Translations under genes and position numbers: made by a program
Origin: Candidatus Faeciplasma pullistercoris
GTDB taxonomy: Bacteria > Bacillota > Clostridia > Oscillospirales > Ruminococcaceae
Assembly (NCBI GenBank): GCA_018715525.1
Contig: DVLL01000015.1
Location: 1-64,000 of the forward strand
DNA length: 64,000 nucleotides
Reading direction: 5' to 3'
Part shown: positions 14,520-46,656 of the stretch, piece after piece
How positions within the stretch are numbered: position 1 is the first letter of the stretch
Layout of the letters: each line of letters begins with the position of its first letter
Notes under the pieces: model-generated
Seen by the model: only the letters and a program-made list of their open reading frames with translations
Told to the model about the DNA's origin: nothing
Database searches by the model: none

Positions 14520-14592
14520 AATAACCATGTAAAGCTGTATTAGTATTATGGTATGGCGGCAAAAGAAAATATATCGTCAAGGAGGCCTTCCA

Positions 14593-26222: not shown

Positions 26223-26251
26223 TTGACATAACGGCTTAGGTTTGATATAAT
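26223..26251 (+). promoter_or_regulatory. Perfect sigma-A promoter of the large transporter operon
   Basis: TTGACA (26223-26228) and TATAAT (26246-26251), 17-base spacer. It lies about 260 bases before the first ATPase gene. Confidence 0.8.
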
Positions 26252-26404
26252 GAAGTAGCTAAAAACAGGACAAATTTAGGCAAATAGACACTATGACATA
26301 ATAAATTTTGCGAAAAGCAAATATTTTTTGGGGCAGCATGTGTTGTGCAAGTTGCTCGAAAAAATGTTTGCTTATCCGTGTTTATAGGGGTTGTTATACC
26401 TTCT

Positions 26405-26421
26405 TTGTGCAAAATGCACAA
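26405..26421. promoter_or_regulatory. 17-base palindrome, putative operator (site A)
   Basis: TTGTGCA-AAA-TGCACAA is a perfect inverted repeat about 90 bases before the first ATPase gene. Its complement matches 16 of 17 bases at 42629-42645 upstream of the membrane-fusion/FtsX genes. Confidence 0.6.
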
Positions 26422-26509
26422 TTAACTAACTTCGTTTTTGTGCCTCAGATCTGACCGCAGGTCGGGAATGACAGCACTTTTGCTACTTGGAACATTTTTT
26501 GGAGGAACT

Positions 26510-27187
26510 ATGGAGACAATCATTGCAACACACGGTCTGTCTCGTGACTTTAAAATCGGAGACGGCAGCGTCGTTCACGCGCTGAAGAACATCAACATTA
26601 CGGTGAACGAGGGAGTTCTTACCATCCTCAAGGGAAGGTCGGGCTCCGGAAAGACTACGCTTATCAACCTGTTGGGCGCGCTTGACCGACCGACTGAGGG
26701 CGAGGTTTTCTTTGACGGAGTTGACATTACCAAGCTGTCTGACTCAAAGCGTGACGAGCTGAGAAGGTACAAAATGGCTTTTGTATTTCAGTCGGTAGCG
26801 CTTATGAGCTCTATGACTGCATACGAAAATGTTGATTTTGGCTTGAGGCTTTCTAAATTTCCCTTTGACAAAAGGGATGAGAAGGTAAAAATGTGCCTTG
26901 AGCAGGTGGGACTTGGCAAAAGGATGTACCATCGCCCGGGCGAGCTGTCGGGCGGTGAGCAGCAGCGCGTCGCGATTGCAAGAGCGTTGGCTCACGACCC
27001 GAGGATAATATTTGCCGACGAGCCTACGGCTGAGCTTGACTCTGCGACCAGCCATCATGTTGTTGAGCTTTTTAAGCAGCTTGTAATAAGAGATCATATA
27101 ACTATTGTCATGACTACTCATGACCCGAGCTTGTTGGAAATCGCCGACAGGGTTTACACGTTAGAGGACGGTGAGATCATTGGGTAA
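26510..27187 (+). CDS. ABC transporter ATPase, MacB/LolD type (1)
   Basis: A 225-residue stand-alone ATPase of the MacB/LolD/FtsE class, which drives mechanotransmission by FtsX-type permeases rather than substrate translocation. Walker A GRSGSGKTT, signature LSGGEQQRVAIARAL, Walker B IIFADEPTAELD and an H-loop (MTTHD) are intact. GGAGG lies 5 bases before the chosen ATG at 26510; the longer frame from 26438 has no site. It overlaps the next ATPase gene by 8 bases, so the two are likely made together and could form a heterodimer. No FtsX permease adjoins it; the nearest is at 43.8 kb, behind the matching palindrome. Confidence 0.92.
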   Translation: METIIATHGLSRDFKIGDGSVVHALKNINITVNEGVLTILKGRSGSGKTTLINLLGALDRPTEGEVFFDGVDITKLSDSKRDELRRYKMAFVFQSVALMSSMTAYENVDFGLRLSKFPFDKRDEKVKMCLEQVGLGKRMYHRPGELSGGEQQRVAIARALAHDPRIIFADEPTAELDSATSHHVVELFKQLVIRDHITIVMTTHDPSLLEIADRVYTLEDGEIIG

Positions 27188-28163
27188 GAAGAAGCAGAGA
27201 AGGATAGAGCATCAGCAGGAGATCTTCGTCCAGGGAGCGGAAAATTCAGAGTACGCCATCGAGTGTGAGAATCTTGTAAAGATATATAAAACGGATAAAA
27301 TCGAAGTGGTTGCCCTTCAGGGACTCGACATGCAGATAAAGAAGGGCGAGCTTGTCGCGATAGTAGGCTCATCCGGCTCAGGCAAGTCTACGCTTCTTAA
27401 CATGCTCGGCGGACTTGACAAGCCTTCTGCCGGCTCGCTTGTGGTATACGGCAGGAACCTCCTTAAGTTCAATGAGGAGGACTACATGATTTACAAGCGC
27501 AATATTGTAGGCTTCGTTTGGCAGAACAACGCGAGAAACCTTGTTCCGTACCTCACTGCTGTTCAAAATGTGGAGCTTCCGATGCTTTTGCAGAACCAGA
27601 AGAACAGGCGCGAGAGAGCTCTTGAGCTTTTAGACGCAGTGGGGCTTTCAAAGAGAGTCAATTCAAGGCTCGATCAGATGTCGGGAGGCGAGCAGCAAAG
27701 AGTCGCGATTGCCATAGCGCTTGCCAATAATCCGAGCATTCTGCTGGCTGACGAGCCCACCGGCTCGGTAGACACCAAGACATCTGACCAAATCCTTAAC
27801 GTTTTCAAGGAACTGAACAGAACAAAGGGAATTACTATTGTAATAGTCACCCACGATTTGAGGCTTGCCAAAAAGATCGATCGAGTTATCGCGATAAGAG
27901 ACGGCAGAACCTCAAGCGAAATCATAAAGAAATCTCATGCGGATATAATCCGGGAGTCACGCGGTCTCGGCGAGGAAAATACTTCGCCTGAGACAGAAGC
28001 CGAGGCGGAAGAGGAGTCTGTAGAGCTTGTGGTTCTCGACAGAACGGGAAGGCTTCAGCTTCCCAAGGAGTATCTCGAAGCGCTTGAAATCAAGGGAGGC
28101 TCGAGGGTGAAGGCGGATTTGGATATGGAGGCAAAACGGATCTATATCGAAAAAGCCGAATAA
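27180..28163 (+). CDS. ABC transporter ATPase, MacB type, with C-terminal AbrB-like domain (2)
   Basis: A second MacB-class ATPase, about 327 residues. The ATPase domain (about 20-245) has Walker A GSSGSGKST, signature MSGGEQQRVAIAIAL and Walker B ILLADEPTGSVD. Beyond it come an acidic linker (ETEAEAEEE) and a final module of about 45 residues reading LDRTGRLQLPKEYLEAL-EIKGGSRVKADLDMEAKRIYIEK. This fits the AbrB/SpoVT/MazE swapped-hairpin pattern (DxxGRxxIPKexxexLxIxxGd). Such a fusion is not standard for MacB ATPases. Starts at TTG 27180 or GTG 27171 are possible; GAGGA spacing favours 27180. The first ATPase gene overlaps its start. Confidence 0.88.
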   Translation: MGKKKQRRIEHQQEIFVQGAENSEYAIECENLVKIYKTDKIEVVALQGLDMQIKKGELVAIVGSSGSGKSTLLNMLGGLDKPSAGSLVVYGRNLLKFNEEDYMIYKRNIVGFVWQNNARNLVPYLTAVQNVELPMLLQNQKNRRERALELLDAVGLSKRVNSRLDQMSGGEQQRVAIAIALANNPSILLADEPTGSVDTKTSDQILNVFKELNRTKGITIVIVTHDLRLAKKIDRVIAIRDGRTSSEIIKKSHADIIRESRGLGEENTSPETEAEAEEESVELVVLDRTGRLQLPKEYLEALEIKGGSRVKADLDMEAKRIYIEKAE

Positions 28164-28229
28164 GCATCTTTTTTAACCTATTTGGATTTTATACAAGCAG
28201 TTAAGTTTATAAGAAAGGTGGAAAAAATA

Positions 28230-31181
28230 GTGAAGAACAAACTGTTCAGGCGTTTGATATCGCTTTTGCTCGTTCTGGCGATGATAATGCCTACCTTGTC
28301 CGCGGTCTATGCTCAGGATAACACCGATTCAGTCGATGAGTCCGAATCTGACGACGGTGAGGTCAAGGAAACTTCTGCTCAGATTATTGATGAGTTGAAC
28401 CGCGCATATACATACAGCACCTACTACACAACTCACAAGGATGACCCGAGACCTGATGCAGAGGTAATCATCAACGGCGTCGACTTCATAGCCCAAGGCG
28501 ATGAAAACGAAGGCTACATAGACACGATCGAAGGAGTCGAGGCTTATGTTTGGCCGGGCGAGGTAGGCTATGTTGAATATCCCTTCACGATCGAGGAAGA
28601 GGGTATATACAACATAGAGATAACCTACTATGCGCTTGCGAGCGTGTCTAACGACATCGAGCTTTCCTTCTTTATCGACGGCGAGAGCCCGTATTCTACA
28701 GCCGACCGTATTGTTCTGTCCAAGTGCTGGGTAGACGAGGAGGATTCCTACACCATTGACGAGAACGGTGTAAAGACATTCAACGTCGATGAAAACGACA
28801 ACCAGATCAGACCTTCTCTGACTGAGTACCTCACATGGCAGACATCTCCTCTTAAGGACACCGACGGACTTTTCAATGATCCGCTCATATTCAATTTCAC
28901 CGAGGGCGAGCATGTTTTAAGAATCGAGTCTCAGAAGGCAAGGCTCGCTATAGCTCAGATAAGGATCTACAACGAGGAGCCTACTCCTGCTGCGGCAGAT
29001 GCTGAGAATGTCACCACAGACGAGTCGGTTGCCTCCCAGACAACCGGAATTTATATTCCCCTCGAGGGCGAAATGGCAGATTACAAGTCAGACGTAACCC
29101 TCTACGCTACATATGACCGTTCTACATATCTGACTTCCCCCTCCGACCCTGTTTTGATGCGTTATAACACGATAGGTCTTGAGAACTGGAAGTCCTCCGG
29201 ACAGACAGTCACATGGAAATTCACCATGCCCGAAGACGGCTGGGTAAAGATAGGCATAAGAGGCAAGCAGAACCAGATGAGAGGTCTTTACTCCAACCGT
29301 AGGCTCTATATCGACGGTGAGGTTCCCTGCGAGGAGGCGGAGGCTGTCAAGTTCTATTACTCCGAATCATGGCAGTGCGTAACGCCTACCGACGCTGACG
29401 GAAACACCATTTACTTCTGGCTGGAAGCAGGCGAGCACGAGATTGCTCTCGAGGCGGTTCCCGGCGAGATAGGCGACATCATGCGCCGTCTTGACGACTT
29501 AGTATTCTACCTGAACAGCTACTACAGGCAGATCCTCCAGATCACCTCACCTACTCCCGACGAGTACAACACCTACATGATCGACAAGCAGATACCCTCT
29601 ATCATCCCTGACTTCCAGATCTACGCAGACGAGCTCAGAGCTGTCAAGGACGATATCGAGACCCTCGCCGGAACAGCCGGAACTGAGGCGGTATCTCTTG
29701 AAACTATGGCTCAGCTCCTTGACAAGTGTATCGAACGTCCCGATAACATTCCCTCGATGCTCGGACAGCTCAAGGACGATATAACATCCCTTTCTCAGTG
29801 GATGACCGATTACCGCAGCCAGTACCTTGAGGTAGACCTTATTGAGATTGTCTCCGCCGACAACGAGTTTTCCAGCGTCAAGGAGAATTTCTTGAAGAGT
29901 CTTGCCTTCAGCTTCAAGTCCTTCCTCGGCTCGTTCTTCCAGGACTACAATGTCCTTTCAAGCGACGAGGACGGAGCTCTCAACGTTTGGGTATCCTTAG
30001 GACGTGACCAGGCCCAGATAGTAAAGGAGCTCGTTGATTCCTACTTCGTACCCGAGACCGGAATAAAGACGTCCATCAACCTTGTTCAGGGCGGTATCCT
30101 CGAGGCGACGCTTGCCGGCAAGGGACCTGACGTCGCGCTATTTATCGGCGGCGACCTTCCGATTCAGCTTGCCGCCCGTGATTGTATAGTAGACCTGTCT
30201 GAATTTGAGGACTACGAAGAGATAACAGAGCGATTTGCTCCTAACATCATGACCCTCTACACATATCAGGAGGGCAACGAAAAGGGCGTATACGGACTTC
30301 CGATATCTCAGACATTCTCGATGATGTTCTACCGCTCCGACGTGCTTCAGTCATTCGGATTTACCGACGTCCCGGAGGATTGGGATCAGCTCATTGAGAT
30401 GCTGCCGACCCTCCAGAGAAGCTACATGGGCATAGGCTTGTCCTTTGATGTATTCGGAACATTCATGGTTCAGCGAGGGCTCAACTACTACAACGAAATG
30501 AAGACCGCGACTATATTCGACGATCCTCTGGCGGTAGACGCGTTTGAGACCTGGACAAAGTTCTACACCACCTACAGCTTCGAGCAGACCTTTGACGCCT
30601 TCTCGAGATTCCGTACCGGTGAGTATCCGATAATCATTACCGGCTACACCTTCTACAATCAGCTTTACATGGCCGCACCCGAGATAAGAGGTCTTTGGGA
30701 CTTCGAGGTAATGCCGGGCTACAGGAACGCCGACGGAACCGTCAACCACTCGACGACCTCAGCTTCCTCCGGCGGTATCATCTTCAGCAAGCTCAACCAG
30801 GAGCAGAGAGAGGACGCATGGGAGCTTCTCAAGTGGTTCACCTCCGCTGAGATCCAGTCCGAGTACGGCAGATCGATAGAAGCGCTGTTGGGTCCTTTGG
30901 GACGATTCGACACAGCCAACATGGAAGCTCTAACACAGCTCTCATGGTCGCGCTCTGAGGTAGATAAGATACTCGAGCAGATGGAGGCGACAGTCGAGAT
31001 AGACATCATCCCGGCTACCTACATAGTCACACGAAACATAACAAACGCATTCAGAGAGACCGTCAACCTCAACAAGAACCCCAGAGATACCTTCCTGTGG
31101 TTCAACCGTGACACCAACGACGAGATCTTGAGAAAGTACGAGGAGATGGGAATTGAAATTCCCGCCTCCACCGGAAATTAA
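28230..31181 (+). CDS. Giant secreted solute-binding protein with N-terminal carbohydrate-binding-like domains
   Basis: A 983-residue exported protein. The GTG at 28230 is preceded by GAAAGGTGG, and the frame then encodes a signal peptide (ISLLLVLAMIMPTLSAVYA, cut before QDN). Two beta-sandwich, CBM-like regions follow (about 100-230 and 270-430). A helical linker (about 440-570) leads to a family 1 extracellular solute-binding domain (about 583-940: LNVWVSLGRDQAQIVKEL, GPDVALFIGGDL, GVYGLPISQTFSMMFYRSDV). Sugar-binding proteins of Gram-positives are usually about 450-residue lipoproteins; this one is twice as long and has no lipobox cysteine. It sits directly before two sugar-type permeases, its probable partners. 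The ligand is presumably a glycan but is unknown. Confidence 0.88.
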   Translation: MKNKLFRRLISLLLVLAMIMPTLSAVYAQDNTDSVDESESDDGEVKETSAQIIDELNRAYTYSTYYTTHKDDPRPDAEVIINGVDFIAQGDENEGYIDTIEGVEAYVWPGEVGYVEYPFTIEEEGIYNIEITYYALASVSNDIELSFFIDGESPYSTADRIVLSKCWVDEEDSYTIDENGVKTFNVDENDNQIRPSLTEYLTWQTSPLKDTDGLFNDPLIFNFTEGEHVLRIESQKARLAIAQIRIYNEEPTPAAADAENVTTDESVASQTTGIYIPLEGEMADYKSDVTLYATYDRSTYLTSPSDPVLMRYNTIGLENWKSSGQTVTWKFTMPEDGWVKIGIRGKQNQMRGLYSNRRLYIDGEVPCEEAEAVKFYYSESWQCVTPTDADGNTIYFWLEAGEHEIALEAVPGEIGDIMRRLDDLVFYLNSYYRQILQITSPTPDEYNTYMIDKQIPSIIPDFQIYADELRAVKDDIETLAGTAGTEAVSLETMAQLLDKCIERPDNIPSMLGQLKDDITSLSQWMTDYRSQYLEVDLIEIVSADNEFSSVKENFLKSLAFSFKSFLGSFFQDYNVLSSDEDGALNVWVSLGRDQAQIVKELVDSYFVPETGIKTSINLVQGGILEATLAGKGPDVALFIGGDLPIQLAARDCIVDLSEFEDYEEITERFAPNIMTLYTYQEGNEKGVYGLPISQTFSMMFYRSDVLQSFGFTDVPEDWDQLIEMLPTLQRSYMGIGLSFDVFGTFMVQRGLNYYNEMKTATIFDDPLAVDAFETWTKFYTTYSFEQTFDAFSRFRTGEYPIIITGYTFYNQLYMAAPEIRGLWDFEVMPGYRNADGTVNHSTTSASSGGIIFSKLNQEQREDAWELLKWFTSAEIQSEYGRSIEALLGPLGRFDTANMEALTQLSWSRSEVDKILEQMEATVEIDIIPATYIVTRNITNAFRETVNLNKNPRDTFLWFNRDTNDEILRKYEEMGIEIPASTGN

Positions 31182-31199
31182 AGGAGGGAAGGAATAAAC

Positions 31200-32147
31200 A
31201 TGGCTAAAAAAGAAGCTGCCGCAGTAGCGAGGCCGATAAACACAACCAGCAAGTCAGCTTATACCTGGCACCTCGTGAAGAGGAACTGGGCGTGCTATGT
31301 CATGATGCTCCCGTTCTTCGTGCTGTTTACGATCTTTACGATAGTGCCTGTAGTACTGAGCTTTCCCCTCGGACTAACGAACTTCAATCTTGTTCAGTTC
31401 CCGAGGTTTATAGGACTTCAGAATTTCTACTCGCTCTTTGTAAATGACGACGTATTCCTCATCGCGATAAGAAACACACTTATCTTTGCGATATTCACAG
31501 GTCCTTTCTCGTATGTGCTCAGCTTTATTCTTGCTTGGCTGATAAACGAGATGAACCCATTCTTCAAGGTGTTCTTCACCTTTGTATTCTACGCTCCGTC
31601 AATGACCCCCTCTGCCTTTGTTATCTGGCAGCTGGTATTCTCAGGCGACTCCTACGGATACCTCAACTCAGTCCTGATGGATCTCGGAATCATAAATACG
31701 GCTCAGCAGTGGCTGACGGATACGACGTACATGATGACGGTAGTTATCATAGTGCAGCTGTGGATGTCGATGGGCGCGGGCTTCCTTGCGCTTCGAGCAG
31801 GATTCCAGAATATCGACGACTCGCTCTATGAGGCGGGTGCAATCGAGGGAATCCAGAACAGATTCCAGGAGCTCTTCACCATTACGATTCCCGCGATGGG
31901 ACCGTCGCTTCTGTTCGCCGCGGTACTTGCCATTTCAGGCGCGTTCACCGTCGGCGGAGTAGGAGCTACGCTCTGCGGCATGCCTTCAACAAACTACGCG
32001 GTTCATACGATTATGAACCACGCTCAGGACTATGGTTCGATCCGTTACGAAATGGGTTACGCCTCAGCGATATGTATGGTACTCTTTGTCGCGATGCTTG
32101 TTACCAACCACCTGATTCGTAAGGCGCTGAGCAGATATACTGACTGA
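31200..32147 (+). CDS. Sugar-type ABC permease, MalF/UgpA family (pair 1)
   Basis: A 315-residue inner-membrane permease with six helices. The cytoplasmic EAA loop (YEAGAIEGIQNRFQELFTIT, then IPAMGP) docks a MalK-type ATPase. AAGGAGGG precedes the ATG, and the gene follows the binding-protein gene by 18 bases. Together with the next gene it would form the translocation pore for the solute-binding protein's ligand. No MalK-type ATPase is in this operon; MsmK at 14.6 kb is the visible candidate. Confidence 0.92.
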   Translation: MAKKEAAAVARPINTTSKSAYTWHLVKRNWACYVMMLPFFVLFTIFTIVPVVLSFPLGLTNFNLVQFPRFIGLQNFYSLFVNDDVFLIAIRNTLIFAIFTGPFSYVLSFILAWLINEMNPFFKVFFTFVFYAPSMTPSAFVIWQLVFSGDSYGYLNSVLMDLGIINTAQQWLTDTTYMMTVVIIVQLWMSMGAGFLALRAGFQNIDDSLYEAGAIEGIQNRFQELFTITIPAMGPSLLFAAVLAISGAFTVGGVGATLCGMPSTNYAVHTIMNHAQDYGSIRYEMGYASAICMVLFVAMLVTNHLIRKALSRYTD

Positions 32148-32164
32148 TAAGGAGGGGAGAATAT

Positions 32165-33124
32165 ATGGCATCAGATAAAAGACTGACTGCTGAAAAGCAG
32201 GCGGCGATTCAGGAAAAGAAGCTGCGCAAGCTCAGACGCCGCCATGTCAACATAAATACCGTTCATGTCAAGAAGTCAAAGGGAAAGCATATAAACGGCT
32301 CCCTCGCAGGTGATATTTCAATTTTCATTTTGCTGGCGCTGCTGGGTATATTCATGATATTCCCGCTCTACTACTCGATTATCCAGTCCTTCAAGCCGAT
32401 AAGCGAGCTGTTCGTATTCCCGCCCAAGCTCTATGTAATATCGCCTACGACCGAGAACTTCTCCAACCTCTTTAAGGTTGCCGGAAACCTCTGGGTTCCC
32501 TTCTCGAGATACGTATTCAACTCGGTATTCATCACGGTAGTTATCACTATCATGCACGTATTTGTATGCTGCTGCTGCGCTTATGTGCTTTCAAAGTGCC
32601 GCTTCCCCGGCTACACCGTGGCGAACCAGATCATAGTAACCTCCCTTCTGTTCACCTCTACCGCGACCGGTATCATGCAGTTCGTAGTAATGGCTAAGAT
32701 GGGAATGATCAACACCTACTGGGCGCTGATTCTTCCGAGCGTTGCGACCCCGATGGGTCTGTACCTCATGCGACAGAGCATGTCGACTATCAACGACTCG
32801 ATAATAGATGCCGCGAAGGTAGACGGCGCGGGCGTATTCAGAACCTGCTGGCAGGTAGTAATACCCAACCAGAAGCCGGCTATAGCGACGCTTATCATCT
32901 TCGTGTTCCAGGGTGCGTGGAACGTACAGGGCGGCGCTCTTGTATACCAGGAGAACCTGAAGACTCTGCCCACCATCATGTCGCAGATCGCGGCCGCAGG
33001 TATTGCCCGACAGGGTATTATCTACGCGTCGGCGGTAGTGCTCATGATCCCTCCGCTCGTCATCTTCCTTATCGCGCAGAGTAATGTTATGGAAACCATG
33101 GCGAACTCTGGTATGAAGGATTAA
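32165..33124 (+). CDS. Sugar-type ABC permease, MalG/UgpE family (pair 1)
   Basis: A 319-residue permease, partner of the preceding one. It has an unusual basic N-terminal extension of about 45 residues (KKLRKLRRRHVNINTVHVKK) before the first helix (ISIFILLALLGIFMIFPLYY). Six membrane helices follow, with an EAA loop DAAKVDGAGVFRTCWQVVIP. AAGGAGGGG precedes the ATG. The basic extension would face the cytoplasm and is not needed for the standard fold; its role is unknown. Confidence 0.92.
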   Translation: MASDKRLTAEKQAAIQEKKLRKLRRRHVNINTVHVKKSKGKHINGSLAGDISIFILLALLGIFMIFPLYYSIIQSFKPISELFVFPPKLYVISPTTENFSNLFKVAGNLWVPFSRYVFNSVFITVVITIMHVFVCCCCAYVLSKCRFPGYTVANQIIVTSLLFTSTATGIMQFVVMAKMGMINTYWALILPSVATPMGLYLMRQSMSTINDSIIDAAKVDGAGVFRTCWQVVIPNQKPAIATLIIFVFQGAWNVQGGALVYQENLKTLPTIMSQIAAAGIARQGIIYASAVVLMIPPLVIFLIAQSNVMETMANSGMKD

Positions 33125-33172
33125 ACCACAAGCTAAATGTTTGATTTAAGAAAAGGAAAAAGGTGATAAGCG

Positions 33173-35469: not shown

Positions 35470-35489
35470 CGGGCAGAAAGTGAGTTGCT

Positions 35490-38054: not shown

Positions 38055-39010
38055 TGGCTGAAGCAGCAGTAAAAGCCGCGAAGGTTAAGGCTCAGAAACC
38101 ACCTAAGCAGAAAGGTCTTAGGATCCCATACGAAAGGCGTAAGGCCATTTATGGCTACGGATTTCTAACAGTTTGGATTTTAGGTACGCTCTACTTCTTT
38201 ATCAGCCCGCTTGTTGTATCGCTCTGGTATTCATTCAACGAGACGGCGGTTACGATGGGCAAGATGCAGACTACCTTCATCGGCATTCAGAACTATATAA
38301 GGGCGTTCACTGAGGACACGCAGTATACCGAGGCGCTCCTCACCGTCCTTAAGGACACGCTTTGGAAGACCCCGATAATAATCATCTTCTCGATATTTAT
38401 CTCGGTCATACTCAACCAGAAGTTCAAAGGAAGAACATTTGCCCGTGCGGTATTCTTCCTCCCGGTTATCATCGCGACCGGACCTGTTATCACCATTATC
38501 AACGGTGATATGGACACCTCCGGTTACGCCGGGGGATCTGACGCTTTCTCAACGATGTTTGAGACTGATATGGCGGGAGCGCTCTTAAGATTCCTTGGTG
38601 TATACAACATCAACGACAGCCTTACCGAGCTCATAACAATTGTTACCAGCGACATCTTCAACCTGGTATGGAACTCGGGTATCCAGATAATCATCTTCCT
38701 CGCAGCCTTGCAGAACATTCCGTTCTCCGCTAAGGAAGCGGCGCAGATCGAGGGAGCCACATCATGGGAGTTCTTCTGGAAGATCACTCTTCCCTACATC
38801 AGCCCCATGATAGTTGCGAACCTCATCTACACTATAGTCGACTCCTTCATCGATCCGAACAACGCCGTAATGGAGATAGTTTTGCAGCAGGCGTCGGGCT
38901 GGTACCACGGTTTTTCGGCTGCGATGGCTTGGGCGTACTTCTTGATAGTAATATTGGCGCTGTGCATTGTTCTGCCGATTATCAACAAGTTCGTTTATTA
39001 CGAAGTGTAA
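38054..39010 (+). CDS. Sugar-type ABC permease, MalF/UgpA family (pair 2)
   Basis: A 318-residue permease with six helices and the EAA loop KEAAQIEGATSWEFFWKITL, then PYISP. The N-terminus has a Lys/Ala/Pro-rich basic stretch (AAKVKAQKPPKQK) before the first helix. Its start overlaps the stop of the DUF5696 gene by one base. This is the second permease pair of the operon, yet there is only one solute-binding protein; the DUF5696 protein occupies the place of a second one. Confidence 0.92.
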   Translation: MAEAAVKAAKVKAQKPPKQKGLRIPYERRKAIYGYGFLTVWILGTLYFFISPLVVSLWYSFNETAVTMGKMQTTFIGIQNYIRAFTEDTQYTEALLTVLKDTLWKTPIIIIFSIFISVILNQKFKGRTFARAVFFLPVIIATGPVITIINGDMDTSGYAGGSDAFSTMFETDMAGALLRFLGVYNINDSLTELITIVTSDIFNLVWNSGIQIIIFLAALQNIPFSAKEAAQIEGATSWEFFWKITLPYISPMIVANLIYTIVDSFIDPNNAVMEIVLQQASGWYHGFSAAMAWAYFLIVILALCIVLPIINKFVYYEV

Positions 39011-39023
39011 AGGAGGGATTCGA

Positions 39024-40142
39024 ATGGCAACTGCAAAAGAAGAAAGAGAGTTTGCGCGTGAGCGCGCAAAGCATCTCAAGGAAAAAGCAAAGGCCTATAA
39101 AGCCGCTAAGAAGGCAGGAACCCTCGATGAGCGTCAGCTTGCTCCCGAGCACCTAAGATACCTCCGCCGCAAGAGAATTTTTGAGAAGGTCTGGCCTATC
39201 GCGAGATTTCTTATTCTCTTCGGGCTCTGCTTTGTAATACTTTACCCTCTTATCTATATGATTTCGACAGCTTTCCGTCCGTCTGTTCAGATGAACGACC
39301 CGTCGGTAATCTGGCTTCCCAAGTCGCTTACATTCAGCAATATTATTGAGGTATGGGATGCGACAAACTTCGGCGAAACGCTTTTGAACACCCTGCTTCT
39401 GAACATGGTCTGCTCAGTTCTCTCAGTAGGTGTGTGCGCGGTCACCGGTTACGGTTTTGCAAGATTTGAGTTTAAGGGAAAGATGATACTCTTCGCAATA
39501 GTAATCATGCAGATTATAGTTCCTCCGCAGATTACGGTTATCCCGCTTTACCTCCAGTACTCGTTCTTCAATCCGCTCGGAATAGTGGACGCGTTTGCGG
39601 CAGGCGGAGCGAAAGAGTTTCTTGGCATGACCATAAAGATGTCGGACGACGGAACGCAGCACTATGTATCTCTTATCAATAACCCGATTGTCATGTACGC
39701 ACCGGCGCTGATGGCGAACGGAATCAAGTCCGGATTGTTCATACTGATATTCAGACAGTTCTTCAAGGGACTTCCGAAGGAGCTGGAGGACGCCGCGTAT
39801 CTGGACGGCTGCGGTCCGTTCAAGACCTTTATCAAGATAATGGTTCCCAACGCCGCATCTTCCTTCCTGACAGTATTCCTCTTCTCGATAGTTTGGTACT
39901 GGAATGATTACTACATAAGCTCGACCTTCTTCAACAACAACCATACGGTTGCTATCGCGCTGCGGCGTCTGTCGACAACGCTTGATCACGAGCTGTTCAA
40001 CGGAACACAGGTCAGCACGCGAAGAAAGATTGTTTGGCTTGAGGCAGGCTGCCTTCTCTCGATAGCGCCCATACTCGTAATGTACATTTTCCTGCAAAAG
40101 TACTTCACCGAGGGACTTGAGAGATCCGGTCTTGTAGGATAA
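39024..40142 (+). CDS. Sugar-type ABC permease, MalG/UgpE family (pair 2)
   Basis: A 372-residue permease, long for the family because of an extension of about 60 residues rich in Lys/Arg/Glu/Ala at the N-terminus (EEREFARERAKHLKEKAKAY) that could form a charged helix. Six membrane helices follow, with an EAA loop LEDAAYLDGCGPFKTFIKIM, then VPNAAS. AAAGGAGGG lies 7 bases before the ATG at 39024; the earlier in-frame start at 38967 lies inside the preceding gene. It is the last gene before a strong terminator. Confidence 0.92.
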   Translation: MATAKEEREFARERAKHLKEKAKAYKAAKKAGTLDERQLAPEHLRYLRRKRIFEKVWPIARFLILFGLCFVILYPLIYMISTAFRPSVQMNDPSVIWLPKSLTFSNIIEVWDATNFGETLLNTLLLNMVCSVLSVGVCAVTGYGFARFEFKGKMILFAIVIMQIIVPPQITVIPLYLQYSFFNPLGIVDAFAAGGAKEFLGMTIKMSDDGTQHYVSLINNPIVMYAPALMANGIKSGLFILIFRQFFKGLPKELEDAAYLDGCGPFKTFIKIMVPNAASSFLTVFLFSIVWYWNDYYISSTFFNNNHTVAIALRRLSTTLDHELFNGTQVSTRRKIVWLEAGCLLSIAPILVMYIFLQKYFTEGLERSGLVG

Positions 40143-40169
40143 ATTTTAGATTGTGTCCTTCCTTTTTTC

Positions 40170-40206
40170 CCGACCGTGGCGTTTGTGCCGCGGTCGGTTT
40201 TTTAAA
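40170..40206 (+). terminator. Terminator of the large transporter operon
   Basis: CCGACCG-t-GGC (40170-40180) pairs with GCC-g-CGGTCGG (40187-40197), followed by a six-base T-run. Confidence 0.9.
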
Positions 40207-40217
40207 TGTATTATATA

Positions 40218-40252
40218 CAAAATGTAATAGCAATACTTTGTATTACATTTTG
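40218..40252. promoter_or_regulatory. Inverted repeat upstream of bioY, putative operator
   Basis: CAAAATGTAATA (40218-40229) and TATTACATTTTG (40241-40252) are perfect 12-base arms with an 11-base gap, ending 15 bases before the bioY minus-35 box. BirA often controls bioY, but this is not the standard GTTAAC-type BirA site, so the regulator is uncertain. Confidence 0.55.
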
Positions 40253-40267
40253 GCAAAATCTTTAAGC

Positions 40268-40296
40268 TTGAAAAAAAGCTGATATTATGTTAGAAT
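40268..40296 (+). promoter_or_regulatory. Sigma-A-type promoter of bioY-GH26
   Basis: TTGAAA (40268-40273) and TAGAAT (40291-40296) with a 17-base spacer, 47 bases before the bioY start. Confidence 0.6.
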
Positions 40297-40343
40297 AATA
40301 CCGTATATTTAAGATTTGACGTATAATATTAGGAGAATGGCAA

Positions 40344-40952
40344 ATGAACTTTAAACTCAGAACAAATAAGCGAGCATTAGAAGAAAAGGCATGTGAAGGA
40401 GTTGCTGTTGGTAGAGTTTCTAAGCTGCAAAACGGTGTAATGGCAATGAGCATGACAGCCCTTGCAGCAGCGATTATATCGGTAATTTCGCCGTGGAGCA
40501 TTCCGGTGGGACCGATACCGGTCACGCTGTGCAGCTTTGCTATATATCTCATATCGAGTGTTCTCGGAGGAGTGAGGGGAGCTGCGGCGGTAGGGATATA
40601 TATACTTCTGGGAGGAGTAGGACTGCCAGTTTTTTCAGGCTTCGCAGGAGGACTTCAGGTCGTAGCCGGCGCAACCGGCGGATACATAATAGGCTATATC
40701 CCGTGCGCTCTGATTACAGGAGGGATAACCTCGCTGTCAAGGAAATGGTACTGGAGCTTTGCGGGAATGCTTTTGGGCACGGCTGTTTTGTACGCAGTGG
40801 GCACGGCGTGGTATATATTGCTGAGCGGAGTAGAGCTGGTTCCGGCTCTTTCGGCGTGCGTCCTTCCGTTTTTGCCCTTTGACATAGTGAAGATGGCGGT
40901 CGCATCATATCTTGGCAGGCGGCTGAGGACGGCAATGGAGAGAAGGTTATGA
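40344..40952 (+). CDS. bioY: Biotin ECF transporter S component BioY
   Basis: BioY is the membrane substrate-binding component for biotin uptake, working with the shared ECF module (EcfT, EcfA1, EcfA2), which is not in this window. The 202-residue protein has the six-helix BioY fold and family motifs: VGPIPVTLCSFAIYLISSVL, LLGGVGLPVFSGFAGG and GATGGYIIGYI. It has about 25 extra residues before the usual start of the fold. AGGAGA precedes the ATG. The GH26-like gene overlaps its stop by four bases (ATGA), an unexpected pairing. Confidence 0.94.
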   Translation: MNFKLRTNKRALEEKACEGVAVGRVSKLQNGVMAMSMTALAAAIISVISPWSIPVGPIPVTLCSFAIYLISSVLGGVRGAAAVGIYILLGGVGLPVFSGFAGGLQVVAGATGGYIIGYIPCALITGGITSLSRKWYWSFAGMLLGTAVLYAVGTAWYILLSGVELVPALSACVLPFLPFDIVKMAVASYLGRRLRTAMERRL

Positions 40953-42583
40953 AAAGAGCCGCGTGTATAATATTATCCGCGCTTATGCTTTGTTCCTGCA
41001 CAGCTTTTGAGTCTGACATTAACGAGCAGGGAACAGGGCAGGATACTGTTGTGATACATACCGATTCCGCACCAGCGACCACCACTGCCGAAGCAATGAC
41101 AACGACTGATACTGACCAGCCGGAGATAACCGAGCCTGTTGTGATTACACTGCCAAGCTACCCGGAGACCGAAATAGGCGAGGTGGTTTACGAGCAGGAG
41201 GATTGCTATAAGCTTTATGAGGCGGAAAACGGCAGTCTTTCCGGCTATGCGGCGGCTGCCTCCTCCCGTGAGGGCTTTTCAGGGGATGGGTATGTCAGCG
41301 GACTTTCTCTGCCGGACAGCTCGCTCAGGATAGAGCTGGAGATCGACTCGCCGCAGCATTACTCGGTGACAGTCTGCGCGGCGTCGGACACGCCGGTAAG
41401 CTGCGAGCTTTTTGTTGACGGACTTGCCAGAGGCATGCTCGAGATTTCCGGCAGCGGTGAATTTGAGGCGATAAAGTTTGACAATATATATCTTACGCCC
41501 GGCGAGGCTATAGTCAGCTTTGAGGGACTTACCGGCGAGTGCGACATGGATTTTGTTCTGCTTGAGAACTCGGACGAGGTATATCAGCTTGAGTACAGCA
41601 TAACAGGCGAGCTTTGCACGCCTCAGCCGTCTGAGAGCGCTTCAAGGCTTTATCGCTATCTGTGCGAAATATACGGCAGCTCCGTGCTGAGCGGTCAGCA
41701 ATGCTCGGTAGGGACAAACCTTGAGCTTGACGCAGTGGCAAATGTAACCGGAAAATATCCCGCCATACGCTTCGGAGAGCTTATGGGTTATGCCTCGGGA
41801 GTAGACACAGGAGACATCGAGCTGTCCATTGAGTATTATCAGAACGGCGGGATTGTGGGATATGTCTGGAACTGGATGCAAAATTCCTCCTGCTATCTTG
41901 AAAAGTCGGGGTTTGATCTAAGTCTTGCCATGACAGAAGAAAACGTGAGCGGCATTGACTCCGATGAGATTGAGTCAATGCTTGAAAGCGGGGAAATAAC
42001 CTCCGAATGCGCGGCGCTGCTCACAGGAATAGACAGGATAGCCCAGCAGCTTTCAAGGCTGGACGACTTAGGGATCTCTGTTCTTTTCAGACCATTGCCT
42101 CAGGCAGGAAATACCGACTTCTGGTGGAACTGCGATAAAGAGAGCTATCAATGGCTGTACGAGCTGATATTTGAGCGGCTGACAGACTATCACGGGCTTG
42201 GCAACCTGATTTGGGTGTGGAGCGCGTATGACCCGGAGTGGTATGTTGGCGACGGATACTGCGATATAATCTCACTTGACGTATATGATTTCAGTCATAA
42301 GCCGTGGGACAATCAGAGCAGAGTCAATCAGTTTATTAGGTTAGAGGACATATCAAAAGAAAAGCCGCTCGCAATAAGCGAATGCAACGTCCTTCCGGCC
42401 CCCGCGAATATTTTGCGCGATAACGCCTATTGGCTGTACGCCTCGGTGTGGTCCGGAAATTACGCCTGCAACAACTCGGGAAACATTTCTACTGAGTACA
42501 TCTCTACGCAGGAATGGATAGTATTTTACAACTGCTCTGCTGTTATCACGAGAGAAAAGCTTACCGAAAGCAGCTCGAACTAA
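40949..42583 (+). CDS. GH26-like lipoprotein with CBM35-like domain and altered acid/base site
   Basis: A 544-residue lipoprotein (lipobox ALMLCSC, first cysteine near residue 15-17) with a Thr-rich linker. A CBM35-like galactose-binding domain follows (about 88-210; YEAENGSLSG, GYVSGL), then a GH26 mannanase-like TIM barrel (about 230-540; SGQQCSVG, NGGIVGYVWNWM). GH26 enzymes carry RPxHE at the acid/base site. Here it reads FRPLPQAGN, so the His-Glu pair is Pro384-Gln385. The nucleophile glutamate is kept (LAISECN, Glu478). It may bind beta-mannan or hydrolyse it poorly. It is translationally coupled to bioY. Confidence 0.82.
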   Translation: MKRAACIILSALMLCSCTAFESDINEQGTGQDTVVIHTDSAPATTTAEAMTTTDTDQPEITEPVVITLPSYPETEIGEVVYEQEDCYKLYEAENGSLSGYAAAASSREGFSGDGYVSGLSLPDSSLRIELEIDSPQHYSVTVCAASDTPVSCELFVDGLARGMLEISGSGEFEAIKFDNIYLTPGEAIVSFEGLTGECDMDFVLLENSDEVYQLEYSITGELCTPQPSESASRLYRYLCEIYGSSVLSGQQCSVGTNLELDAVANVTGKYPAIRFGELMGYASGVDTGDIELSIEYYQNGGIVGYVWNWMQNSSCYLEKSGFDLSLAMTEENVSGIDSDEIESMLESGEITSECAALLTGIDRIAQQLSRLDDLGISVLFRPLPQAGNTDFWWNCDKESYQWLYELIFERLTDYHGLGNLIWVWSAYDPEWYVGDGYCDIISLDVYDFSHKPWDNQSRVNQFIRLEDISKEKPLAISECNVLPAPANILRDNAYWLYASVWSGNYACNNSGNISTEYISTQEWIVFYNCSAVITREKLTESSSN

Positions 42584-42628
42584 TTAACAAATATGAAATA
42601 AAATATATTAAGAAAAATTACAGTATAG

Positions 42629-42645
42629 TTGTGCATTTTGCAGAA
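42629..42645. promoter_or_regulatory. 17-base near-palindrome, putative operator (site B)
   Basis: TTGTGCATTTTGCAGAA differs at one base from the complement of the perfect palindrome at 26405-26421. It ends 7 bases before the minus-35 box of the membrane-fusion protein promoter. Confidence 0.6.
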
Positions 42646-42652
42646 ATTTCTC

Positions 42653-42681
42653 TTGTAATTTTCTTTGAATTTTGGTATGAT
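42653..42681 (+). promoter_or_regulatory. Sigma-A-type promoter of the membrane-fusion/FtsX genes
   Basis: TTGTAA (42653-42658) and TATGAT (42676-42681), 17-base spacer, about 80 bases before the gene. Confidence 0.65.
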
Positions 42682-42760
42682 TTAAGATAGTAAAATATCG
42701 GTGAGAATACTTGGAACGCACTCGCCGAATAGTGCAAAGCGAGAAGAAAGGAAAGTAGAT

Positions 42761-43810
42761 ATGAAGATTTCAAGGGTTATATTCCTGACGGCTGCCGCAG
42801 CGATGCTGGTTATGTCGCTCAGCGGATGCTATTTTCTTCCCGAAGAGGAGGAGGTATACGACCCGCCGGTAGTAAAGGCGAGCGAGGTATCGTATACTAC
42901 GACCACTGCTACGCGCAAGGATCTTGTGAAGCAGGTAGTAGCAGCCGGAACCATCACCTCCGGAACAGAGTCGAACGTCGCTTTTACCGAGTACGGCGGC
43001 TCGATCAAGCAGGTATATGTTTCTGCCGGGGACGCCGTTGAAGAGGGACAGCTTCTTGCCGAGCTTGAGACCTATGCTCTTGATCAGGAGATAACCATCA
43101 AGGAGATGGAGGTATACCGCGAGGAGCTGGAGTATCAGATAGCAGTGGAAAACGGCGAGTCTGAGACTGTGAAAGCGAAGGAAAAGCTTGATGTTGAGCT
43201 TATGCAAAACGAGCTTGACGGACTTCTCGAGCAGAAGGCCGCTGCCGCTATTTACGCGGATGTTGCCGGAACCGTTTCCTACGTCAGAACGCTTTCGCCC
43301 GGAAACTGGGTAAACGCAGGCGACACGATAGTCACTATTATAGACATAACCGACCTTTACATAGACATTTCTCCCACGACTGAGGTGGGGCAGTTCCTCA
43401 TTGGCAGACCTCTCTCGATAAGATACGAGGGAGAGTACTATGACGGAGTTGTCGTAGCCAACAAGTCGGGCAAGCAGTGGGATGAGGAAACTCAGGGAGA
43501 GCTTCTCGGCGAGGACGGAGAGCCTGTGCTTGCGGAGGGCTCGGAAAAGATAAGGGTAGCCTTCAAGGACGATATACCCGTGTCCTCGGCAGTCGGAAAC
43601 ATTGCCGACGCGGTTCTGGTTCTTGACAGCCGCGAGGATGTAATAGTAATATCAGCTAACCTGATAAAGACAGATAACGGTCAGCAGGTCGTATATTTGT
43701 TCAAGAACAACGAAAGAGTCCGCACGCCCGTAACCACAGGGCTGCAAAGCGGCTCGTCGATAGAGATCACCTCCGGCCTCGAAGTGGGCGACGAGATTAT
43801 AATCAGATAA
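42761..43810 (+). CDS. Membrane-fusion (HlyD/MacA-type) lipoprotein
   Basis: A 349-residue periplasmic-adaptor-type protein, here a lipoprotein on the outer face of the membrane (lipobox SLSGC, Cys23). It has the MacA/HlyD layout: a barrel-sandwich strand (GTITSGTESNVAF), a lipoyl half-motif (VSAGDAVEEGQLLAELET), a short helical hairpin (about 110-160), the second lipoyl half (AGTVSYVRTLSPGNWVNAGD) and beta-barrel parts. The C-terminal TGLQSGSSIEITSGLEVGD is typical. AGAAAGGAAAG precedes the ATG. The FtsX permease gene follows after 35 bases. In Gram-positives such proteins pair with MacB-like transporters. Confidence 0.9.
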   Translation: MKISRVIFLTAAAAMLVMSLSGCYFLPEEEEVYDPPVVKASEVSYTTTTATRKDLVKQVVAAGTITSGTESNVAFTEYGGSIKQVYVSAGDAVEEGQLLAELETYALDQEITIKEMEVYREELEYQIAVENGESETVKAKEKLDVELMQNELDGLLEQKAAAAIYADVAGTVSYVRTLSPGNWVNAGDTIVTIIDITDLYIDISPTTEVGQFLIGRPLSIRYEGEYYDGVVVANKSGKQWDEETQGELLGEDGEPVLAEGSEKIRVAFKDDIPVSSAVGNIADAVLVLDSREDVIVISANLIKTDNGQQVVYLFKNNERVRTPVTTGLQSGSSIEITSGLEVGDEIIIR

Positions 43811-43845
43811 TCAGCCGGCCGCTTGGGTATTAGGAGGGAAAATAA

Positions 43846-46656
43846 ATGCTGACATTACTGCTGCGCAAGATGCGCAACACCAAGTGGATGGTGATATGCC
43901 TACTCATAGGCTTTGTTATGGCTACCGCCATGACCAGTACCATCCCGATATACATGAACGCCTCGCTGCAGCGAATGCTGATAAAGGATATGCAGGCGTA
44001 TCAGGACGAAAATAACGAATATCCGGGTGTTTACGCCGTTTCAAAGACTATTATAAGCGGAACGAACGCACTCGAGCAGAGCACTACCGTAAACACCGTC
44101 TACCGCAACGCGACAGGACGCTTCAACTCGCTGCTGGTTCCGATGCTCAACCGCAAGTGCTTTACCTCTGACCCGTATCTTTACGTGCCCGCGATTCAGT
44201 CTACCGAGCTCGCCATGCTAAAGCTCGGCGGTATGACCGACATCGAGGATCATATAGTCATTACTTCCGGAAGAATGTATACTCCCGGCAAGAACGAGGA
44301 AGGCGTTTACGAGGTAATTTCAACCGAGATCGCGCTTGTAAATTCGCAGCTCTCGCTCGACCAGGTCTACGATGTAACAAACATTTTCAACCCCGGAGAA
44401 TCCATCAAGATAAAGGTAGTAGGAACCTTTGAGCTTGCCGACGAGCGGGACACCTACTGGTCAGAGGGGCTTTCCGAGTATGACAACACCTTCTTCACCG
44501 ACTTCAACACTCTGACAGGCGAGCTGGTCATGACCGGCATAGTCAACCTCAATCAGGTCGAGTGCCGCTTCATAATCGATTACCAGAACATGAGCATGAA
44601 TGTCATCGAGCATGTCATAAGCAGCTTTGAAAGACAGTCTGAAACGTATGACAGCGAGGGAGTGGATTTCGAGGTTCCGGCCTTTGAAATACTCAAGGCT
44701 TACGCCGAGAAGGCGGCTTCGCTCAGGTACATACTCTTCATGCTCGACATACCGGTAGTTATCATGCTGATATTCTATCTCTTCATGGTATCTCAGCTCA
44801 ACATCGAGTCTGAGAAGAATGAGATAGCGATGCTCAAGTCAAGAGGAGCGTCGAGGTGGCAGATTGTAAGGATTTACGCATACGAGACGCTGATCCTCGG
44901 AGCGGTATCGGCGATCATAGGACCCTTTGTAGGGCTTGGGCTCTGCGGAATACTCGGCGTGTCAAATGGATTCCTTGAGTTTGTCAACCGTCCCGCGCTG
45001 AACGCCAGCCTTTCGCTGACCGCTTTCGTATACGCAATCATAGCCGTCGGCGTGTTCTTTATAGCGACCATCGTGCCTGTCGTTCCCGCATCGAGGATAT
45101 CGATAGTAGGACACAAGCAGAGCAAGGCTCACAAGCAGCGCAAGCCGCTGTGGCAGAGAGCGTATCTTGACTTCCTCATGGCGATTCTGCCGGTAGTCTG
45201 GCTGTGGTGGCACAACAGGCAGGAGCAGATGCTCATCGAGCAGGGAGTTACCGACACCTCCGCCACCATGAAGAATCCGCTGATGTTTGCGGCGTCTACA
45301 CTGTTTATACTCGGTGTGGGACTTGTGTGCATCAGGCTTTATCCATACTTCATCAGGCTTATATACCTCATCGGAAAGAAAAAATGGTCGCCTGCGGCGT
45401 ACATTTCGCTCAATAATATAAGCCGCTCCTCTACCGGCAGGGAAAGATTCATAATGATCTTCCTGATACTCACCGTTGCGCTCGGAATATTCTCGGCAAA
45501 CACGGCGAGGGCCATCAACCGCAACACAGAGGAAAGGATAAAGTATAACCTCGGAGCGGACGTAGTCCTTGAGGAGCTTTGGAAGTACGCGAGAGTTCCC
45601 GTGACCGACGCCGAGGGCAATCAGGTCAACGAGGCTCAGTATTTCGAGCCTGAGTTCACCACATATCAAGCCCTTGACGGCGTAAAGCTCGCAACTCCTG
45701 TATTCAAGAGGGAAACGGTGCAGCTGAGGTACAACGAAAAGACCCAGACCGACTGTCAGATCATGACCATAGTGCCGGATCAGTTTGCGCAGGTATGCTG
45801 GTTCAGGAACAATTTGCTTCCGGTGCACATCAACTACTACATCAACGCACTAAGCGAGTGCATTAACGGCGTGATCGTATCCTCGTCCTATCAGGAAAAG
45901 ACCGGACTTGAGCTCGGAGATGTTATTCAGGTCAAGTGGGGTCAGAACGAGTGGTTCGAGGGAACGGTGGTAGCGGTAGTGGATTACTGGCCGAGCATCA
46001 ATCCCTATGAGAAGAACTCCGCCGGAGAGTACCGCGACTTCGTGATAATGAACTACGACTATGTGAACGTGCAGACGAGCTTAGAGCCGTATCAGGTGTG
46101 GATCTCAATGGAAGACGGCGCGTCGATCCAGCAGTTCTACAACTCCATTGAGGAGGCGGGAATAACCGCGACAAGGCTGGACGTAGCGTCGCAGATGATA
46201 ACCTCGTCAAAGACGGACGCCACGCTCCAGGGCGTGAACGGAGCGCTGACGCTCGGCTTTATCACCATCATGGCGCTCTGCTTCATAGGCTTCATAATCT
46301 ACTGGATACTCTCGATAAAGGGTAGGACGCTGCAATTCGGTATTCTCAGAGCGATGGGTATGTCCTTCAGGGAGATAATCTCGATGATAATCTACGAGCA
46401 GATCCTTGTCTCGGGAGTCTCGATATTCCTCTCTATCATAATAGGCGGCGTCGCGTCAGACCTGTTCGTGCCTTTGTTCCAGGTGCTGTACAATGTCACC
46501 GACCAGGTTCCTCCCTTCGTCGTCGCGTCGCAGCGCTCCGACTACATCAAGCTGTATATCATAGTCTTTGTAATGCTGCTTGTAGGCTTCATAGTGATAT
46601 CAAGGCTTATCAAGTCTATCAACATCAACAAGGCGCTCAAGCTGGGTGAGGATTGA
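43846..46656 (+). CDS. Large ABC permease with two FtsX domains
   Basis: A 936-residue permease of the MacB/FtsX superfamily without its own ATPase. An N-terminal helix is followed by an ectodomain of about 250 residues. The first FtsX core follows (YLFMVSQLNIESEKNEIAML, KSRGASRWQIVRIYAYETLI), then middle helices, a second ectodomain (about 560-790) and a second FtsX core (LQFGILRAMGMSFREIISMI) ending in ININKALKLGED. Double-FtsX permeases need a MacB-class ATPase. The only such ATPases in view are at 26.5-28.2 kb, sharing the palindrome upstream. TAGGAGGGA precedes the ATG, and a bidirectional terminator follows. Confidence 0.92.
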   Translation: MLTLLLRKMRNTKWMVICLLIGFVMATAMTSTIPIYMNASLQRMLIKDMQAYQDENNEYPGVYAVSKTIISGTNALEQSTTVNTVYRNATGRFNSLLVPMLNRKCFTSDPYLYVPAIQSTELAMLKLGGMTDIEDHIVITSGRMYTPGKNEEGVYEVISTEIALVNSQLSLDQVYDVTNIFNPGESIKIKVVGTFELADERDTYWSEGLSEYDNTFFTDFNTLTGELVMTGIVNLNQVECRFIIDYQNMSMNVIEHVISSFERQSETYDSEGVDFEVPAFEILKAYAEKAASLRYILFMLDIPVVIMLIFYLFMVSQLNIESEKNEIAMLKSRGASRWQIVRIYAYETLILGAVSAIIGPFVGLGLCGILGVSNGFLEFVNRPALNASLSLTAFVYAIIAVGVFFIATIVPVVPASRISIVGHKQSKAHKQRKPLWQRAYLDFLMAILPVVWLWWHNRQEQMLIEQGVTDTSATMKNPLMFAASTLFILGVGLVCIRLYPYFIRLIYLIGKKKWSPAAYISLNNISRSSTGRERFIMIFLILTVALGIFSANTARAINRNTEERIKYNLGADVVLEELWKYARVPVTDAEGNQVNEAQYFEPEFTTYQALDGVKLATPVFKRETVQLRYNEKTQTDCQIMTIVPDQFAQVCWFRNNLLPVHINYYINALSECINGVIVSSSYQEKTGLELGDVIQVKWGQNEWFEGTVVAVVDYWPSINPYEKNSAGEYRDFVIMNYDYVNVQTSLEPYQVWISMEDGASIQQFYNSIEEAGITATRLDVASQMITSSKTDATLQGVNGALTLGFITIMALCFIGFIIYWILSIKGRTLQFGILRAMGMSFREIISMIIYEQILVSGVSIFLSIIIGGVASDLFVPLFQVLYNVTDQVPPFVVASQRSDYIKLYIIVFVMLLVGFIVISRLIKSININKALKLGED

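Follow-up and report, generated by a model that had tools for sequence, protein, structure and literature searches.

Why does a pair of MacB-class ATP-binding cassette (ABC) ATPases stand at the head of a sugar-uptake operon, with an FtsX-type permease beyond the end of that operon? This question is raised by a stretch of 64,000 nucleotides from Candidatus Faeciplasma pullistercoris (contig DVLL01000015.1, positions 1 to 64,000), which we call the window and which is part of a draft genome of 1.71 Mb in 25 contigs. Two ATPase genes (ATP1 and ATP2) are followed there by a cassette for a large solute-binding protein (SBP), two pairs of MalF/MalG-type permeases (P1 to P4), an NHL/TPR protein, a Yip1-domain protein and a DUF5696 protein; a membrane-fusion protein (MFP) and a double FtsX permease are encoded further downstream. 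An earlier interpretation of this DNA, made without database searches (the sequence-only reading), had joined all of these into one apparatus. We compared the window with the loci (L-numbers) and genomes (G-numbers) of relatives. We regard it as reasonably probable that two separate machines meet here and that the glycan-uptake operon in the window's family is headed by an ATP1-ATP2 pair that serves separate permeases.

When looking at FtsX in other genomes, we find that it pairs with ATP1 and ATP2. FtsX orthologues were detected in 39 of the 293 class genomes (E <= 1e-30) and in 20 of the 117 order genomes (E <= 1e-100), the window's own included in both counts. We read 38 FtsX loci (L150 to L166, L169 but not L167 or L168, and L174 to L193). 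They cover 22 places in the class sample and, of the 19 order genomes with FtsX other than the window's own, 16 (all but G334, G373 and G378); L150 and L151 were chosen since they adjoin a cassette, and the hidden Markov models used for FtsX, MFP, ATP1 and ATP2 were partly built from loci that they score. MFP, FtsX, ATP1 and ATP2 lie in one cluster in 23 of the 38 loci. Two others (L156, L160) are cut short by a contig end past ATP1, and a local ATPase pair is missing from 13, which include four loci of the window's family. This synteny supports the proposal of the sequence-only reading that MFP-FtsX and the two ATPases flanking the cassette belong to one system. That the two ATPases have no permease was ruled out, since their orthologues cluster with FtsX. 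Among further second-copy loci, L198 encodes two ABC ATPases next to FtsX; by the FtsX of L196 and L197 no ATPases of this kind were seen, and L196 adjoins two ABC exporters of another type. Three MFP-type genes stand in tandem upstream of one FtsX in L160, L161, L162, L163, L164, L169 and L188.

The sugar-uptake cassette is likewise conserved as a unit. The DUF5696 domain scores above the Pfam cut-off in 75 of the 293 class-sample genomes (70 at E < 1e-20). We compared 81 cassette loci, namely L032 and 80 DUF5696 neighbourhoods (G100, G221, G042:C57, G065:C2, G111, G202 and shorter or weaker hits were left out), calling gene content by a six-frame scan that reached no further than 9-10 kb to either side, and less far at contig ends. 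The gene order is SBP-permease-permease-NHL/TPR-Yip1-DUF5696-permease-permease, and it is complete in 68 of the 81 loci, counted as SBP, two permeases and NHL/TPR or Yip1 upstream of DUF5696 and two permeases downstream of it. The remaining 13 mostly lie on short contigs or are one recognised permease short. In at least 36 of the 81 loci (L036, L053, L060 and L062 among them) NHL/TPR and Yip1 form one open reading frame (ORF), and this fusion suggests that the two proteins work together. The 75 genes found downstream of cassettes (73 of 96 listed and two from L076; individual families named for 25 of the 75) include SBP_bac_1 in 30 cases and GH26 in four, with GH10, GH43, GH5, GH16 and GH9 among the other matches listed. 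A common form of the cassette thus looks like two sugar importers round one scaffold, plus a second SBP. In the window, no second SBP lies directly downstream of the cassette.

The sequence-only reading had suggested that all ten families co-occur, as a single apparatus that includes the glycan importer. Here it was not borne out: ATP1/ATP2 stand beside the cassette in three of the 81 DUF5696 loci (two from the family of the window, and L032 from a near relative), and FtsX stands beside it in two. That reading had also staked itself on the ATPases not sitting beside a different permease elsewhere and on related loci keeping MFP-FtsX; the ATPases do adjoin FtsX elsewhere, but it is the orthologue of the window's, and MFP-FtsX is absent from the stretch read around most cassettes. 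The cassettes of two more family members, L194 and L195, also adjoin ATP1/ATP2. The order ATP1-ATP2-SBP is found in all four other sampled family members with DUF5696 (L167, L168, L194 and L195, from G126, G228, G374 and G386) and in L032, which comes from an Oscillospiraceae metagenome-assembled genome, the nearest named relative found. In these four members and in the genome of L032, MFP-FtsX lies elsewhere, with no ATPase pair beside it (L152, L153, L154 and L157; L199 for L032). The MFP and FtsX of L199 are 69% and 72% identical to those of the window. A second DUF5696 locus in G228 (L065) lies on a contig too short to tell its neighbours, and in G212 and G257, the two sampled family members without DUF5696, no FtsX orthologue was found.

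If the ATPases are encoded away from their permease, how many permeases would they serve? In all 12 genomes that we chose because at least one FtsX there is without a local ATPase pair, exactly one close ATP2 orthologue was detected (61-71% identity outside the window, next best at most 48%). In G031 it adjoins one of the three FtsX; in the remaining 11 genomes it lies away from all FtsX found. Genome G031 has three FtsX copies and G182 and G277 have two each, yet each has one ATP2; one pair therefore probably serves several MFP-FtsX units in such genomes. Furthermore, the FtsX loci without ATPases more often have glycan-related neighbours, taken here to mean genes of a glycoside hydrolase or a sugar importer, or a DUF5722 protein accompanied by a LacI-type regulator. 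Such neighbours occur at seven of 15 ATPase-less loci scanned (L150, L151, L178, L179, L186, L187, L197; not at L152, L153, L154, L157, L176, L177, L183, L196) and at one of 17 ATPase-linked loci (L181), with Fisher p 0.013 in a post hoc test on related loci with one to three neighbours scanned per locus. Without counting L197 as glycan-related, the figures are 6/15 and p 0.033. Six of the 23 ATPase-linked loci were left unscanned, the window was left out of the comparison, and L158, L165 and L191 had no family match among their neighbours; sugar oxidoreductases, a polysaccharide deacetylase and MurG were scored as not glycan-catabolic. Tentatively, the single-copy ATPase pair with its MazE/AbrB-like tail might be a motor lent to several MFP-FtsX units, each at a different and often glycan-breakdown locus, with the motor in the window's family placed at the head of a glycan-uptake operon; the tail may tie the motor to regulation. 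Sharing of MsmK among sugar importers would be the model for this proposal, with the ATP1-ATP2 pair as its MacB-class counterpart. At L197 (L197:718-2271), a DUF5722 protein is encoded directly upstream of the ATPase-less MFP-FtsX pair and a LacI-type regulator further downstream.

Could the two modules be neighbours by chance? ATP1-ATP2 might have moved once to the front of the cassette in an ancestor of the family and have only an envelope function unrelated to glycans. A single event of this kind accounts for the family cases, and the MFP-FtsX genes of the four other family members lie by genes for PTS enzyme I, CTP synthase, polyphosphate kinase, poly(A) polymerase and a PH-domain protein. 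The scanned neighbours of ATPase-linked clusters are also mostly housekeeping genes or genes without known function. Such a history nevertheless has to explain why ATP2 has been retained beside the SBP at 65-82% identity in five relatives, and it does not predict the excess of glycan-related genes at ATPase-less loci; we consider it unlikely.

The single apparatus of the sequence-only reading, in which ATP1/ATP2, MFP-FtsX, the permease pairs, DUF5696, NHL/TPR and Yip1 together import glycans or process surface glycans, fares worse and appears improbable. In its favour, ATP1-ATP2 head the cassette in the family members read, and two genomes from other families (L150, L151) have FtsX directly upstream of SBP, one of them together with an MFP. 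Across the class, DUF5696 (E < 1e-20) occurs in 25 of the 39 FtsX genomes and in 45 of the 254 others (p 7e-9), and at the level of families in 12 of 17 with FtsX and 17 of 57 without (p 0.004; 74 class families inferred from family labels), phylogeny being ignored in both tests. This co-occurrence hints at a functional tie between FtsX and DUF5696. Moreover, both lie within 15 kb of each other in three of the 25 class genomes that have both, compared to about 0.46 expected by chance (p 0.012); excluding the window leaves two (p 0.074), a rough estimate that assumes mean copy numbers and genome size. However, neither ATP1/ATP2 nor FtsX lies by 76 of the 81 cassettes within the stretch read, 14 of the 39 class and 12 of the 20 order FtsX genomes have no DUF5696 at E < 1e-20, many FtsX clusters adjoin housekeeping genes, and in the window a hairpin and two other genes intervene. 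That ATP1 and ATP2 replace MsmK and power the MalF/G-type permeases directly is very improbable: they are the sole ATPases of the operon and the SBP ORF starts 19 bases past ATP2, but their orthologues go with FtsX in the 23 clusters, most cassettes are without them in the stretch read, MalK OB/TOBE domains were not found in them by Pfam, and a MalK-type gene is present in the window, so that ATP1/ATP2 were rejected as motors of P1 to P4.

Under the preferred reading of two machines, the first would be a conserved Clostridial-type glycan-uptake cassette, in which the large SBP delivers to two CUT1-type permease pairs energised by MsmK, NHL/TPR-Yip1 forms a membrane scaffold, and the secreted DUF5696 protein holds or trims the glycan. 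The second would consist of the membrane-fusion lipoprotein, the fused double-FtsX permease and the two different ATPases, which probably dock one on each half of the asymmetric permease and would act as a heterodimer. As the cassette operon begins with ATP1-ATP2, the motors of the second machine would be made, and so co-regulated, with the first when the glycan operon is on, and MFP-FtsX would be a separate unit. What the second machine moves is the least certain step of the account; by analogy with known members of the class we guess at a lipid-linked or amphipathic molecule encountered as glycans are broken down, on which the machine would most likely act on the outside of the membrane.

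The role assigned to DUF5696 comes from its predicted fold. Residues 125-854 were modelled with 59 sequences (mean pLDDT 91), and in a Foldseek comparison with the PDB the best hits are GH129 chains (E 2e-28 to 5e-23; among them 5opq, 8rzk and 5wzr), followed by GH101 (E 6e-19) and then GH36/GH31. The overall predicted fold is that of GH129 (NagBb, ZgGH129) and GH101, with TM scores for the GH129 chains of 0.60-0.64 by query and 0.69-0.74 by target, whereas the identity is only 12-13%, DUF5696 has no Pfam match to these families and its acidic residues are variable. In the sequence alignment, the candidate acidic columns 654, 714, 715 and 750 vary among DUF5696 relatives.

Several points weigh against our account. 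The single-copy count of ATP2 comes from genomes chosen for their ATPase-less FtsX and is no survey. In the genome of L032, MFP-FtsX (L199) lies about 44 kb downstream on the same 175,843-base contig and the same strand, that is, the closeness seen in the window is not conserved. Within the order, DUF5696 occurs in eight of 20 FtsX genomes and in 52 of 97 others (p 0.33), with no excess; given the excess in the class, the association between FtsX and DUF5696 is therefore not uniform. As to DUF5696 itself, at E 0.001 Pfam reports DUF5696 only, and the GH129 and GH101 profiles are unmatched. Column 654 is Asp in 44 of the 59 sequences, column 715 is Glu in 32 and Leu in the window, and column 750 is Glu in 51 and Ala in the window. 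With no profile match and variable acidic positions, catalysis by DUF5696 is at most putative, and we call the protein a glycosidase fold.

The features of the locus, identified by ORFs and Pfam, are collected in Table 1. Every counted gene between 26438 and 46656 lies on the plus strand. All genes named by the sequence-only reading proved real; it overlooked BioY, the GH26-like lipoprotein and the hairpin (40170-42583), and it was right about a large solute-binding protein, giving it 983 residues where the ORF has 999.

Table 1. Features of the window discussed in the text, with the profile matches or other evidence for each.
Feature	Position	Strand	Evidence
ATP1, LolD/MacB-class ABC ATPase	26438-27187	+	PF00005 116.6 bits
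ATP2, second LolD/MacB-class ABC ATPase, C-terminal MazE/AbrB-like domain	27171-28163	+	PF00005 112.7 bits
Large sugar-binding protein (SBP), 999-aa ORF	28182-31181	+	PF13416 70.1 bits; PF01547
P1, MalF-like permease	31200-32147	+	PF00528 37.8 bits
P2, MalG-like permease	32165-33124	+	PF00528 26.9 bits; EAA-like loop
NHL/TPR protein, C-terminal membrane helix (by eye)	33173-34837	+	PF01436, PF07719
Yip1-domain membrane protein	34834-35469	+	PF04893 58.9 bits
DUF5696 protein, signal peptide by eye	35490-38054	+	PF18952 478.8 bits; GH129/GH101-like predicted fold
P3, MalF-like permease	38054-39010	+	PF00528 24.5 bits, slightly below 26.4 cut-off; EAA-like loop
P4, MalG-like permease	38967-40142	+	PF00528 49.2 bits; EAA-like loop
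Intrinsic-terminator-like hairpin	40170-40197	+	12 pairs (9 G-C), then T6
BioY biotin-uptake component	40344-40952	+	PF02632 132.4 bits
GH26-like lipoprotein	40949-42583	+	PF02156 128.6 bits; CBM_35 sub-threshold (21.7 v 28)
Membrane-fusion (HlyD/MacA-type) lipoprotein, MFP, lipobox by eye	42701-43810	+	PF13437, PF16576
Double FtsX permease, 936 residues	43846-46656	+	two PF02687 stretches + PF12704
MalK/MsmK-type ATPase	14536-15735, start codon not fixed	+	PF00005, OB_MalK, TOBE

The genes from ATP1 through P4 are tightly spaced or overlapping and thus probably form a single transcription unit. The hairpin starts 28 bases past the end of the P4 gene, and the MFP-FtsX unit begins 2.6 kb past the cassette in this genome. 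Since BioY, the GH26-like gene and the hairpin lie in between, MFP-FtsX probably belongs to another transcription unit. BioY is a neighbour outside both modules. Promoter-like sites, which are consensus matches only, lie upstream of BioY (40268-40296) and of MFP (42653-42681); the consensus scan gave 29 promoter-like sites compared to 20.3 expected and 25 terminator-like sites compared to 15.0 expected. Facing the end of the FtsX gene, a MarR-like helix-turn-helix gene, a histidine kinase and a response regulator lie on the minus strand at 46744-49559.

For both ATPases, LolD, DevA, FtsE and MacB are among the best NCBIfam matches, which places the two in the LolD/MacB class, and in ATP1 the Walker A, signature, Walker B and H-loop motifs look complete by eye. 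The LolD cut-off of 307.75 is reached by neither (ATP1 205.1, ATP2 236.5) and FtsX scores 21.9 against the LolC/E cut-off of 362.45, so that the set does not qualify as LolCDE. Similarly, both ATPases fall below the 966 bits of MacB NF007826 (ATP1 178.7, ATP2 208.5), and ATPase and permease are separate genes. No NCBIfam cut-off is reached by ATP1 or ATP2 (among the best 25 of 190 and 191 matches) or by MFP or FtsX (all matches); MFP scores 85.9 against 94.9 for RND_mfp. In FtsX, the two PF02687 stretches (71.2 bits, cut-off 25.5) and MacB_PCD (28.4, cut-off 27) show that domains of a mechanotransmission permease are present. The tail of ATP2 spans about residues 289-328, is of the type LDRxGRxQxPxEYLxxLGI with variation, and is recognisable in all 29 aligned rows (two of which are one gene). 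Of seven ATP2 proteins scanned, two (L182, L175) exceed the cut-off of PF04014 (MazE_antitoxin); the remaining five, including that of the window with 17.8 against 24.7, stay below it. Systems of the YknXYZ type combine a single ATPase gene, YknY, with a permease of one unit, YknZ; the 23 complete clusters, with two ATPases and a double permease, do not match this type.

On the importer side, the SBP together with MalF/MalG-type permeases with EAA loops identifies a CUT1 sugar importer. Three of the four permeases pass the PF00528 (BPD_transp_1) cut-off, and an EAA-like loop was found by pattern in three and by eye in P1. Permeases of the MalF/G type need a MalK/MsmK-type ATPase; OB_MalK marks two places in the window's own genome, one of them inside the window, and the gene there is the likely motor of the four permeases. 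The SBP, modelled by AlphaFold2 over residues 45-999 (pLDDT 89), has N-terminal beta-rich regions, a helical region and then an oligosaccharide SBP domain. The best Foldseek matches of the model are oligosaccharide SBPs such as 5ysf and 5ci5 (the 50 hits listed concern the SBP domain), and the beta-rich regions at the N-terminus might, judged by eye, be sugar-binding modules.

In the GH26-like lipoprotein, RPLPQ takes the place of the RPLHE that is present in 3zm8 and in four relatives. We take the Glu of RPxHE to be the acid/base residue of GH26 mannanase, and at this position the window has Gln. The solved chain 6hpf, possibly engineered, also has Gln there. Judged by this residue, the lipoprotein may be a glycan-binding pseudo-enzyme. 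GH26-like ORFs with a weak match to the window's GH26 profile lie a few genes from MFP-FtsX in L150 and L153.

How do the two modules relate to described systems? According to a review of the MacB family (PMC5985334), adaptor systems of Gram-positive bacteria such as YknXYZ have one ATPase gene, and fused permeases of the BceB and YbbP type exist. YknXYZ and SpMacAB combine an adaptor, a MacB-type permease and an ATPase in bacteria without an outer membrane, as here, whereas the window's system has two different ATPases, one with a MazE/AbrB-like tail, and a double permease, and in part of the genomes the ATPases are encoded away from the permease. BceB and YbbP share with the window's FtsX two permease units in one polypeptide; in contrast to them, FtsX of the window's type clusters with a membrane-fusion protein and two ATPases. 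The CUT1 importers of Caldicellulosiruptor bescii that share MsmK (PMC8579813) likewise consist of SBP and MalF/MalG-type permeases with no ATPase of their own and an MsmK-type gene elsewhere, whereas the window's operon adds two permease pairs, a 999-residue SBP, NHL/TPR-Yip1 and DUF5696. In the open-licence literature (subscription papers not covered), we found no paper on DUF5696, no description of a two-ATPase form of a MacB-class system, and nothing relevant on the gene combination, an AbrB-tailed MacB-class ATPase or a large SBP with a carbohydrate-binding module. Both modules are widespread and apparently undescribed. The parts are each of known kinds; it is their splitting, and perhaps their sharing, that is unusual. 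DUF5696 gains a predicted fold and a glycan-uptake context, and if one ATPase pair does serve several permeases, annotators should not expect each MacB-type permease to have an adjacent ATPase of its own.

Lastly, the DUF5696 gene itself is disrupted at two of the cassette loci. In L036 (L036:5532-10929) its two parts are separated by a pair of ORFs (263 and 498 aa) on the opposite strand, and in L045 it is split over two ORFs.

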